Of a stretch of 55,849 nucleotides of DNA, positions 48,665 through 52,947 are shown piece by piece. Positions within the stretch are counted from its first letter, which is position 1. Each line of letters starts with the position of its first letter. The stretch lies in the NCBI GenBank assembly GCA_030834165.1, contig JAURFU010000005.1:1-55849 (forward strand), given 5' to 3'. Made by a program: the position numbers and the translations under genes. The notes under the pieces are model-generated. The model did no database searches, had not been told where the DNA came from, and saw only the letters and a program-made list of their open reading frames with translations. Source of the stretch: Verrucomicrobiota bacterium (GTDB lineage: Bacteria; Verrucomicrobiota; Verrucomicrobiia; Opitutales; UBA953).

Positions 48665-48785
48665 GGGAGTGTCTCGGGCGGACTTTGGCAGGCCCGCCCT
48701 TCCCTTCCAGCCTTTTTGCGGTCGTATGACACCGCTTGCCTCCCCTCCCCTCGCCCCTTGGGATGAACCCGGCTCACGCCCTCCC

Positions 48786-50144
48786 ATGTCCGCCACCGAG
48801 ACCATCGTCGCCGCCGCGACCCCCGCGGGCCGTTCCGCGCTGGCCATCGTGCGCGTCGACGGCCCGCTCGCGGCCACGATCGCGCACGCCGCCCTCGGCC
48901 GGAAGACCCCGCTCGCGGAGAAGACCTCGACGCTCGGCATCTGGCGCGACGGAACCGGCGCGCCGATCGACCAGGTCGTGGCCGTGCTCTGGCAGGCCGG
49001 CCGTTCCTTCACCGGCAACGACTCGCTCGAGATCACCTGCCACGGCAATCCCCTGCTCGTGCGCCGCCTCACCGAGGACTGCCTCGCGCGCGGCGGCCGG
49101 CTCGCCGAGCCCGGCGAGTTCACGCGCCGCTCCTATCTCGCCGGACGCATCGACCTCACGCAGGCCGAAGCCGTCGCGGACCTGATCCACGCCAGCTCCG
49201 AGCGCGCGCTCGCCTCGGCGCGCCGCATGCTCGCCGGCGAACTTGGCCGGCACGTCGCGCAATGGACCGACCGCACCCTGCAGGTGCTCGCCGAACTCGA
49301 GGCGCACATCGATTTCCCCGAGGAAGACCTGCCGCCCGAGGACCCGCGCGGACCAGCGGCCCGCTTGGCCGGAATCGCGTCAGAACTTTCCGCTTACGCC
49401 CGCACGGCGAAGCACGACGGCGCCCTGCGCGCGGGCCTGCGCGTGGCCGTCGTCGGCGCGCCGAACGCCGGCAAGTCGAGCCTCCTCAACGTGCTCGCCG
49501 GCGCCGAACGCGCGATCGTGAGCCCCGAAGCCGGCACGACGCGCGACTACCTCGAGGCGCCCGTCGCGGGCCTGCCGCTCGCCGTCACCGCGATCGACAC
49601 CGCGGGACTCCGCGACGGCGGCTCGACGGTCGAGAACCTCGGGATGACGCGCTCGCTCGAACAGGCGCGCGGCGCGCACCTGCTGCTCCTCGTGGTCGAC
49701 GCTTCCGCCGAACCCCCCGCCCTGCCCGCGGAGCTCGTCGCGCTGCTGGACCCCGCGCGCTCGCTCGTCGTCGCGAACAAGTCCGACCTGCCCGCGCATC
49801 CCGCGCAGAAAGATTTCCTGCCCGGACTGACCAAGCTTTCGGCCTGCCTCCTCGACGGCCGCGACGCCGAGTCCCTGCGCGCGAAGCTCGGGGAATTCCT
49901 GGTCGCCCGGGACATCGCCCCCGGCGCCGAGGAACTCGTCGTCTCCGTCCGCCACGCCGAGGCCATGGCCAGGGCGGCGGTCGGCCTGACCGAAGCCGTC
50001 GGCCACCTGAAGGCCCCCATCCAGACGGAACTGGCGGCCGCCCAGGCCCGGGCCGCCCTGGACGCCCTGGGGGAGATCGTCGGTCGCATCGATAATGAGC
50101 GTATGCTGGACAAGCTCTTTGCTTCCTTCTGCATAGGTAAGTGA
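48786..50144 (+). CDS. mnmE: tRNA modification GTPase MnmE
   Basis: With MnmG it builds the 5-carboxymethylaminomethyl group at U34 of certain tRNAs. The 452-aa protein has the folate-binding N-terminal domain ([22 protein letters not shown]), helical domain, G domain with GAPNAGKSS (224 to 232), TTRD, DTAGLRD (271 to 277) and NKSD, and ends with the catalytic CIGK. ATG at 48786 begins the domain; the frame opens earlier. The mnmG gene follows at once. Confidence 0.96.
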
Positions 50145-50167
50145 TTCCCTCCGGTGAGGGAGCGCCT

Positions 50168-52048
50168 ATGCGACCTCACAAACAAATCCGCCTCGGGCCC
50201 GACCGCCCCTACGACGTCATCGTCTGCGGGGCCGGCCATGCCGGCGTGGAAGCCGCCCTGGCCGCCGCCCGCATGGGGGTCGACGTCCTGCTGCTGACCG
50301 GCAACGTGGACACCATCGCCCAGATGAGCTGCAACCCCGCCATCGGGGGCCAGGCCAAGGGCCACATCGTCCGCGAGATCGATGCCCTGGGGGGTGAGAT
50401 GGGCCTGACCGCCGACGTCACCGGGATCCAGTTCCGCCTCCTCAACTCTTCCAAGGGTCCGGCCGTCCAGGCCCCCCGCGCCCAGTGTGATAAGAAGGCC
50501 TATCAGTTCCGGATGAAGCACCTCTGCGAGCTCCAGGCCGGCCTGACGATCTTCCAGGCCCAGGTCACCGGACTCCTCTTCAAGGCCGGCGCGGTCGTCG
50601 GCGTGCAGACCAATCTGGACCTCGATTTCCACGGCAAAACCGTAGTCGTCACCACCGGGACTTTCTTGCGCGGCCTGATGCACATCGGGGCGAATAAAAC
50701 CGAAGGAGGACGGCTGGGTGACTTTAGTGCTAAGTCATTGTCCAGCAGTTTCTTAGAGGCTGGCATTGAGCTCCAAAGGCTCAAGACCGGCACCCCTCCG
50801 CGCATCCTCGGATCGTCCATCGATTTCTCGAAGTGCGAAGAGCAACCCGGCGATGCCTCCCCTACCCTGTTCGCCTTCCATGACACGCGCCAGCAGGAGG
50901 ATTTGTTCCACGTGGAACAAGCGGGTGAGCGCCTCCCTGGATGGACTCCCGGCAGCGATCAGGTATCCTGCTGGATGACGGAGGCGACGGGCGCCACGGG
51001 TAAGATCGTCCAAGAGAACCTCCACCTCTCCCCCCTCTATGGAGGCGAGATCACCGGCGTCGGCCCGCGCTACTGCCCCTCCATCGAGGACAAGTTCGTG
51101 AAGTTCTCGGATAAGGATGCCCATAAGCTCTACCTAGAGCCCGAAGGTCGGAATACCGATGAATGGTATATCAATGGCCTGTCGACCTCCCTTCCCTTCA
51201 CGGTCCAGCTGCAGATGCTGGCCTCCGTGCCGGGACTGGAGAATGCCGTCATGTTGCGCCCGGCCTATGCCGTAGAGTATGATTTCGCGCCTCCGACCCA
51301 GCTCTACCCCACCCTCGAGTCCAAAAAGGTGGATGCCCTCTTCTTTGCTGGCCAGATCAACGGTACCTCCGGATATGAGGAAGCCGCCGCCCAAGGCCTG
51401 GTCGCCGGGGTCAATGCCGCCTGTAAGGTCAAAGGCCAGACTCCCATGGTCCTTGGCCGTGATGAGGCCTATATCGGGGTCCTCATTGATGACCTTGTCA
51501 CCAAAGGCACCCAAGAGCCTTACCGGATGTTCACCAGCCGGGCTGAATTCCGCCTTTTGTTCAACCACGGCAGCGCCGAGCTTCGCCTTAAGGATAAAAT
51601 CGCCGAATTCGGCCTCGTACCGCCTGATCGTCTGGCCCGGATCCAGTCCAAGGCCGAAAAAGTGGCCCACTGGATCGAATACCTGGAAAAGCTGGCTATC
51701 CCGGGAGGAATCGCTGGCGATGTCATCCGTCGCAATTGGGACTCCACGCCCAAGGACTTGCCGCCCACATTCCTGGCCGAAGCCGCGGAAGTTCAGGCGG
51801 AAGTCATGTATCGGGTCAAATACCGTGGCTACTTGGAACGTGAAACGCGCAACGCCCGCAAACTACACGACCTGGACTCTTTTAAAGTGCCTGAAGGCTT
51901 TGATTTCCTCAAAGCCTACGGACTGCGGATCGAGGCCCGCCAGAAACTTCAGGCCATCCAGCCTAAGACCCTCGGCCAAGCCAGCCGCATCAGCGGGGTC
52001 AACCCGGCAGATATCTCGCTGCTGATGGTTCTTTTTCGATCCAAATAA
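50168..52048 (+). CDS. mnmG: tRNA uridine 5-carboxymethylaminomethyl modification enzyme MnmG
   Basis: FAD enzyme and partner of MnmE, about 626 aa. FAD site [62 protein letters not shown], the [10 protein letters not shown] and [17 protein letters not shown] segments, and the helical tail ending [16 protein letters not shown] ribosome site six bases before ATG 50168 favours that start; GTG at 50141 overlaps the mnmE stop and is an alternative. The second half is clearly richer in A+T than its neighbours, and it contains a parS match at codons FHVEQ. Confidence 0.96.
50904..50919. promoter_or_regulatory. parS: parS site inside mnmG
   Basis: TGTTCCACGTGGAACA is a perfect palindrome identical to the parS form known from Pseudomonas and close to the Bacillus consensus TGTTNCACGTGAAACA. 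It lies in frame, encoding FHVE residues of mnmG. With the second copy at 52066 it probably loads ParB near the chromosome origin. Confidence 0.85.
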
Positions 52049-52065
52049 GAGAGAAGGGAAGGGGG

Positions 52066-52081
52066 TGTTCCACGTGGAACA
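52066..52081. promoter_or_regulatory. parS: parS site just downstream of mnmG
   Basis: Second exact TGTTCCACGTGGAACA. It is embedded in a 24-bp perfect palindrome (52062-52085) by flanking GGGG and CCCC. It begins 18 bp after the mnmG stop. A hairpin-terminator role is also possible but the loop-free palindrome and lack of a T run argue for ParB binding. Confidence 0.88.
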
Positions 52082-52251
52082 CCCCTATGTAAAGATTGTG
52101 GCCGCACGGGGTGACAGTCGTGTTTCATAAGTTCATAAATTATTGATAGTGAATTACTTATGTATCAATAATCGCTGCGTAACCTAGCCGCCATCATTGA
52201 CACCTAACTCTGGCGCTTAGGTCGGGGCTCCTTTTATGTAAGGACTCACCC
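52082..52251. other. AT-rich intergenic region with a dyad, upstream of the PhoB-like gene
   Basis: Positions 52120-52175 are the most AT-rich stretch in the window. It holds a TTCATAA direct repeat (52124-52130, 52132-52138) and perfect 10-bp inverse arms ATTATTGATA/TATCAATAAT (52139-52148 and 52163-52172). It may be the promoter/operator of the two-component genes or part of an origin-like element; no consensus DnaA box (TTATCCACA) was found. Confidence 0.5.
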
Positions 52252-52947
52252 ATGGACGCCGAACATCTCAAGCGCATCCTGATCGTCGACGACGAAGCCG
52301 ACGTCACCGAGCTCCTGGATTATAAATTCAAGCAGGCGGGCTACGCCATCCGCACGCTCAACGACCCGCTCCGCGCCATCGGCCTGGCCCGCGACTTCCG
52401 CCCGGACCTGATCATCCTCGACGTGATGATGCCCGAGCTCACCGGCGTGCAGCTGCTCCGCATGGTCCGCGCGGACGCGCTCCTGCAGGACACCCCCGTG
52501 ATCTTCCTGACGGCGAAAGGGGAGACGGTCGACAAGGTGAAGGGCCTCGAGTCCGGCGCCGACGATTACGTGACCAAGCCTTTCGACACGCGTGAGCTCC
52601 TGCTCCGCGCGCAGGCGCTCCTCCGGCGCGCGAAATCCGCCGCGGCCAAACCGTCGACGCGCCTCGCCGCCGGCGCGCTGGTGCTCGACATCGAACGCCA
52701 CGAGGTCACCGCCACCGGCAAACCCGTCGACCTCACGGCGACCGAATTCAAGCTGCTCCGTCTGCTCCTCGAACGGAAGGGCAGGGTGCAGTCGCGCGAA
52801 GAGCTGCTGGCCGACGTCTGGAATTATTCTCCCGACCTCGAGACGCGGACGGTCGACACGCACGTGCGCCGTCTCCGCGAGAAGCTCGGCCCGGCCGGCG
52901 ACGTGATCGACACGGTCCGCGGCGTCGGTTACCGCGTGAACGGCTGA
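52252..52947 (+). CDS. PhoB/OmpR-type response regulator
   Basis: DNA-binding regulator, 231 aa. Receiver domain with DDE at 13 to 15, phospho-acceptor D57 (LIILDVMMPE) and K107 (FLTAKGE); C-terminal winged helix with TEFKLLRLLLERKGRVQSREELL and RTVDTHVRRLREKLG. An AAGGA ribosome site is seen eight bases before the ATG, unusual in this window. The kinase gene follows by 49 bp. Phosphate control is likely by similarity, and a PstS-like gene lies nearby. Confidence 0.92.
   Translation: MDAEHLKRILIVDDEADVTELLDYKFKQAGYAIRTLNDPLRAIGLARDFRPDLIILDVMMPELTGVQLLRMVRADALLQDTPVIFLTAKGETVDKVKGLESGADDYVTKPFDTRELLLRAQALLRRAKSAAAKPSTRLAAGALVLDIERHEVTATGKPVDLTATEFKLLRLLLERKGRVQSREELLADVWNYSPDLETRTVDTHVRRLREKLGPAGDVIDTVRGVGYRVNG

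Follow-up and report, generated by a model that had tools for sequence, protein, structure and literature searches.

Two identical copies of the 16-bp palindrome TGTTCCACGTGGAACA were found 1162 bp apart (start to start) in the 55,849-nucleotide stretch of Verrucomicrobiota DNA that was analysed as a whole (the window). One copy lies inside the gene mnmG and the other just downstream of it. Both are very probably (probability about 0.93, from sequence comparison) chromosomal parS sites, at which the ParB clamp of a ParABS system would load and which would mark the origin region for segregation. By analogy with characterised systems, in part as described in an excerpt of PMC7333895, ParB dimers would bind the 16-mer, close with CTP and slide to flanking DNA; the ParB complex would be moved by ParA and would load SMC. 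We infer that the ParB of the source organism binds these sites and that they serve segregation there. The centromere of the phylum Verrucomicrobiota would be carried in mnmG, in most cases within a loop of the protein that varies in length, and the intergenic copy would be a second site in the nearest relatives of the window.

parS sites in the window

The host gene of site 1 was mnmG (gidA; 50141..52048, plus strand), encoding the tRNA uridine-5-carboxymethylaminomethyl(34) synthesis enzyme. Its ORF scored 741.5 bits against TIGR00136 (cut-off 524.85). Site 1 (50904..50919) was identified by exact match and by the synonymous constraint described below. It is read as L-FHVE-Q: FHVE corresponds to mnmG codons 256–259, and with the flanking bases codons 255–260 are covered. 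Site 1 and its flanks form an 18-bp palindrome. Site 2 (52066..52081) is the identical 16-mer in the intergenic region, 17 bases 3' of the mnmG stop codon, and the palindrome search placed it inside a perfect 24-bp palindrome (52062..52085). The initial annotation had described an identical 16-bp palindrome present twice within 1.2 kb, the second copy within a perfect 24-bp palindrome and the coding copy held in FHVE codons, and these positions agree with it on every point.

No further match to the 16-mer was found in the window at up to three mismatches. In shuffled windows the mean was 0.07 matches at this tolerance, and two matches were reached in 0 of 100. The source genome is available as a draft of 2.25 Mb in 150 contigs, which is 81% complete. 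Many copies spread over the genome had been named as evidence against parS; the search of the whole draft gave two copies, with no match at 0, 1 or 2 mismatches besides sites 1 and 2. At three mismatches there were ten places, versus six for a reversed control pattern.

The intergenic palindrome could alternatively be a hairpin at the RNA level that terminates mnmG transcripts, its likeness to parS being secondary. The transcript 52049–52120 was predicted to form an 11-pair stem at the palindrome, with −35.1 kcal/mol for the whole stretch and a z value of −5.0. However, no T-run follows the hairpin, and the terminator scan did not report it. Relatives keep the 16-mer but not the extended stem: the palindrome around site 2 ranges from 16 to 28 bp among them, and its extension past 16 bp is not conserved. 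A terminator as the primary role was rejected on the missing T-run and the variable stem extension, and this explanation is considered most unlikely. The 24-bp palindrome was also rejected as a functional unit because its extension beyond the 16-mer varies among relatives.

Conservation of the coding copy and selection on DNA

Relatives were taken as the best 80 of 587 mnmG-encoding stretches, ranked on the MnmG of the window. All 80 carried parS in mnmG at up to two mismatches (none in 65, one in 13, and two in two), in one shared reading frame and one shared loop. This conservation excludes chance as the origin of the palindrome; with 0.07 matches expected at up to three mismatches and two exact ones observed, the probability of chance is negligible. 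The coding copy is, judging from these alignments, conserved far beyond the genus and not incidental. The intergenic copy 3' of mnmG was present in all 20 nearest of the best 80 relatives (15 exact and five with one mismatch); the remaining 60 contained one, with one mismatch.

In 14 of the best 80 relatives, the loop held two or three in-frame copies of parS, 48, 51 or 63 nt apart. Start-to-start distances of 48 or 51 nt were seen in L092, L096, L106, L108, L115, L125, L128–L130, L134, L135, L145, and L151; L123 had two loop copies at 63 nt. The spacing of multiple loop copies was even.

Codon use was examined in 100 MnmG rows, of which 96 were kept and 72 remained after dereplication at 90% protein identity. 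The rows left out were L158 (no site), L045 (decayed site), L029 (a stop in the matched stretch), and L160 (a duplicate of L013). FHVE was present in 72 of 72 dereplicated MnmG proteins, encoded by TTC in 72; CAC in 68 (CAT in 4); GTG in 67 (GTA in 5); and GAA in 72. Of 314 conserved degenerate columns in these 72 proteins, the four with the least codon entropy were those of FHVE. Among 109 comparable runs of four, the next run had a summed entropy more than five times that of FHVE. The exact FHVE codon set was found in 63 of 72 proteins, versus 4% expected under pooled codon use.

The reading frame was compared in 70 loci of the phylum, comprising the 30 best scorers and 40 loci picked for family spread, several of them from the order of the window; this set was not random. 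In 7 of the 70 loci, from outside the class, the loop held a parS read in another frame, spelling CSTWN or VPRGT, and six of these had at most one mismatch. L251 carried three exact parS, each in a different reading frame. parS occurs in all three reading frames across the phylum, so the coding copy is under selection at the DNA level. The loop would tolerate any peptide that the DNA spells, be it FHVE, CSTWN or VPRGT, according to the frame. A portion of mnmG seems to be maintained for chromosome segregation and not for the enzyme.

The site was also found at other positions. In family f23, which we guess to be Akkermansia, the loops examined had no site, and parS lay at MnmG residue 546 in 9 of 12 rows. 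In genome G038 the mnmG site had decayed to PLYVER. The sole parS of G038 at up to one mismatch lay 20 kb from mnmG on the same contig (L157:7492; G038:C14:27491), read as MFHVEQ in a 985-residue ORF on the plus strand (L157:6771-9728).

A functional MnmG peptide, with the palindrome as a mere by-product of protein conservation, would account for FHVE in all 72 dereplicated proteins. However, synonymous positions were nearly frozen at the FHVE codons only, the 16-mer was also used in the other two frames of the loop, and a second copy stands outside mnmG in the nearest relatives of the window. Nine rows of one family had the site at residue 546 instead, and MnmG proteins with no site exist (genome G042 and the rows lacking parB, described below). 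The loop that carries FHVE was also predicted with low confidence. An origin of the palindrome in protein conservation is thus extremely unlikely, and the reading as parS is preferred.

The MnmG loop carrying site 1

Site 1 sits in a length-variable loop of MnmG. The mean pLDDT of the predicted MnmG structure was 84, and residues 252–266 (50894..50938, plus strand), whose codons hold site 1, formed the longest internal run with pLDDT below 50. In the alignment with the best-matching solved MnmG chains, 2zxh and 3cp8, gaps shorten this stretch. Such low confidence is as for disordered loops, and the loop of site 1 is probably disordered.

The loop stretch measured 94–157 residues (median 105) in the 42 rows whose loop carried a site at up to one mismatch, and 97 residues in the nine rows with the site at residue 546. 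Four parB-bearing rows without a site had 96–97 residues, and 15 rows without parB had 82–96 (median 83). The extra length is not due to parS alone, because parB-bearing rows without a loop site reach 96–97 residues. The idea that parS caused an insertion in MnmG was not cleanly borne out by these lengths.

ParB and ParA of the source genome

One ParB match was found in the source genome (TIGR00180, 168 bits; G000:C98:9222-9740), and it was close to solved ParB/Spo0J. Matches to AAA_31, a ParA-type profile that also fits related ATPases, were found on contigs C67, C75, and C59, the best being on G000:C67 with an E value of 6e-53. Neither parB nor AAA_31 matches were found on C106, the contig of the window. 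The absence of parA and parB from the window, stated in the initial annotation, was thereby corroborated, and its caveat that the genome might lack parB was answered by the match on C98.

The source ParB was aligned to Caulobacter ParB 6t1f; residues were read by eye, with the chain numbering shifted by 10 by our own count. It has kept the residues that correspond to R173 and G201 in Caulobacter numbering. These two residues are absolutely conserved in ParB and altered in Noc (PMC7383237, excerpt). Two DNA-contact residues common to ParB and Noc (same excerpt) differed in the source ParB, S172 being replaced by P and R204 by K.

Distribution of parS and parB in the phylum

The co-occurrence of parS and parB was investigated in a phylum sample of 145 genomes, with a strong ParB match defined as E at most 1e-40. 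Of the 94 genomes with strong ParB, 79 had exact parS, and of the 51 without strong ParB none had it; these are raw counts over related genomes. Among the 15 of 94 strong-ParB genomes without an exact site, G066, G067, and G089 had a one-mismatch site in mnmG. No site was found in the fetched mnmG locus of the strong-ParB genomes G105 and G178. The initial annotation had taken the palindromes for ParB-binding sites; this is consistent with the restriction of exact parS to strong-ParB genomes in the sample, with the R173 and G201 equivalents of the source ParB, and with the identity of the 16-mer to parS2 and parS3 of Pseudomonas aeruginosa (PMC4368675, excerpt).

In the source genome and its close relatives (n = 57), parS was present at up to one mismatch in 51. 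Six genomes lacked it: the assemblies of G002, G005, G020, G022, and G051 contained no credible mnmG, and G042 (0.9 Mb) had mnmG and lacked parB. parS without a ParB match was found in G006, G008, G012, and G045, all of which are drafts, G045 being 95% complete.

Just one exact site was held by 41 of the 79 genomes with exact parS. Among the 75 exact sites listed, which came from 43 of the 79 genomes, 58 were inside mnmG, 12 were outside it on the same contig, and five were on a contig without an mnmG match; gene limits were estimated where the mnmG profile match was partial. At least one site inside mnmG was found in 41 of these 43 genomes. In G188:C84:2722-3520, five exact parS were packed in 0.8 kb, and the contig had no mnmG match among the matches listed.

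These counts bear on a mainly local role, in which bound ParB would regulate, or act as a roadblock to, mnmG and the phoB-like genes 3' of it, and the sites would not be a centromere. The arrangement in the window, with one site in mnmG and the other between mnmG and the PhoB-like gene, suits such a role, and earlier work on other systems has put forward parS-mediated gene regulation (PMC2346475 and PMC4368675, excerpts). However, the source draft had no other parS at up to two mismatches, and usually no other candidate centromere exists in the phylum sample, because 41 of 79 genomes have a single exact site and 58 of the 75 listed sites are within mnmG. A mainly local role is therefore very unlikely, and the sites are best regarded as centromeric parS.

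An MnmG tree of 71 rows was made by a quick search, with the loop and residue-546 columns excluded. An in-gene site was present in 52 of 56 parB-bearing rows versus 0 of 15 rows without strong parB. The 52 sites consisted of 42 in the loop at up to one mismatch, nine at residue 546, and one in the loop with two mismatches; the mnmG of four parB-bearing rows had no site. On the tree, site presence changed three times, position classes five times, and parB twice. Two independent pairs were available, of which one changed in the same direction and one showed no difference. The co-distribution of parB and parS rests on few independent events. The tree, which does not separate gain from loss, is compatible with parS having arisen in mnmG close to the root of the sampled phylum and with subsequent losses.

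Position of parS relative to the origin and the par genes

The source draft was too fragmented (150 contigs) to be mapped for the origin, so relatives were used. GC skew was sampled in 20 or 10 coarse stretches, supplemented by finer sets, and not computed as whole-genome curves. In G040, a single contig of 2.63 Mb, the sole parS at up to one mismatch was at 2,274,433 and the skew changed sign, minus to plus, near 2.294 Mb, approximately 19 kb away. In G055 (3.75 Mb), the mnmG-borne parS was at 882,723 and the skew turn at about 0.898 Mb, approximately 15 kb away. In G142, parS was at 2.155 Mb and the skew turn at about 2.065–2.10 Mb. In G192, parS was at 3.732 Mb and the skew turn between 3.62 and 3.66 Mb, with a coarse half-circle estimate of 3.81 Mb. 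In the latter two genomes, parS was approximately 55–110 kb, or about 1–3% of the chromosome, from the nearest skew switch. Local skew was irregular in all four genomes. The results supported the earlier proposal that such ParB sites lie near the replication origin, since parS was at or near a skew switch in four relatives; in the genome of the window itself, parS would lie near the origin likewise.

The distance between dnaA and parS was 40% of the chromosome in G040 and 7% in G055. In a study of 12 gut bacteria, all with ParABS homologues and Akkermansia muciniphila YL44 among them, the origin was placed by Hi-C, parS clusters, and GC skew, and dnaA was not always an origin marker (PMC10197239, excerpt).

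The distances of the par genes were determined with contigs treated as circles. Eight genomes of the same order on one or two contigs were used: G040, G055, G072, G142, G145, G153, G175, and G192. In every one of the eight, parB and parS were separated by 43–49% of the chromosome; the genomes are related, so these are not eight independent facts. parA was 28–46% of the chromosome from parS, and parA and parB were at least 21 kb apart. In G135, from outside the class, the distances to parS were 35% of the chromosome for parB and 20% for parA. In G040, G142, and G192, parB fell between the samples bracketing the opposite skew turn, a coarse placement for G142 and G192. In G055, parB was about 0.3–0.5 Mb from the opposite skew turn. 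A parAB operon beside parS and oriC, which is usual though not required, was absent in the source draft, in which the par genes are on other contigs, and in the relatives measured. One 15-kb sample of G055 (L185; G055:C1:376001-391000) had a G+C of 0.29, and the other 19 samples had 0.51–0.62.

A joint reading of these data, towards which we lean, is that mnmG has housed the centromere in much of the phylum from close to the root of the sampled tree onwards. The length-variable, probably disordered loop would be a protein-neutral landing pad, where parS was gained, multiplied in frame, frame-shifted, and lost with parB. parA and parB would have drifted off, parB towards the terminus in the order of the window.

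Comparison with known systems

In P. aeruginosa, parS2 and parS3 are perfect palindromes, are among the four sites nearest oriC, and are best bound by ParB in vitro (PMC4368675, excerpt). Some parS of this species are intragenic (same excerpt), including one in recF (PMC3909081, excerpt). P. aeruginosa has ten sites, and its parAB lies at a distance of approximately 7 kb from oriC, whereas the source draft has two sites, one of them in mnmG, and parA and parB on other contigs. parS-359 of Bacillus subtilis is likewise in a protein-coding gene, parB (PMC4442127, excerpt); here the host is mnmG, over much of the phylum, with the site in a low-confidence loop and in three frames in relatives. Putative parS of Mycobacterium bovis BCG were reported in the coding region of parA and the regulatory region of gidB, beside gid and par genes (PMC2346475, excerpt). 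M. bovis BCG has parAB close by, unlike the window. No mention of parS in mnmG was found in the literature searched, of which the coverage was partial. Coding parS as such have been described before; what appears to be new, within the literature searched, is that mnmG anchors the site in much of a phylum, together with the frame evidence.

Coding parS have so far been single cases, and here one gene would host the centromere across much of a phylum. Judging from the codon-level and three-frame evidence, part of a tRNA-modification enzyme appears to be shaped by a signal for DNA segregation. If this is true, an origin-linked housekeeping gene would guard parS from loss and, with no par operon next to it, keep it by the origin. 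Centromere maintenance without a neighbouring par operon, and parS duplication and movement, would have a natural test case in the phylum. parS in mnmG may also be a simple origin-region marker for uncultured members of the phylum, in which dnaA can be distant.

Neighbouring genes of mnmG

mnmG is preceded by mnmE (48669..50144, plus strand), and its 3' neighbour is a gene for a PhoB-like response regulator (52252..52947, plus strand). A PhoR-like kinase is also encoded downstream of mnmG with the PhoB-like regulator. The mnmG stretch (50001–52000) had a G+C down to 0.615, and the other 2-kb blocks of the window had 0.66–0.73. Before the PhoB-like gene, the region 52124–52171 was AT-rich. By eye, TTCATAA was repeated there at 52124–52130 and 52132–52138, and an inverted repeat, TTATTGATA/TATCAATAA, was present at 52140–52148 and 52163–52171. 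By resemblance, the repeats of 52124–52171 are perhaps a PhoB-type operator.
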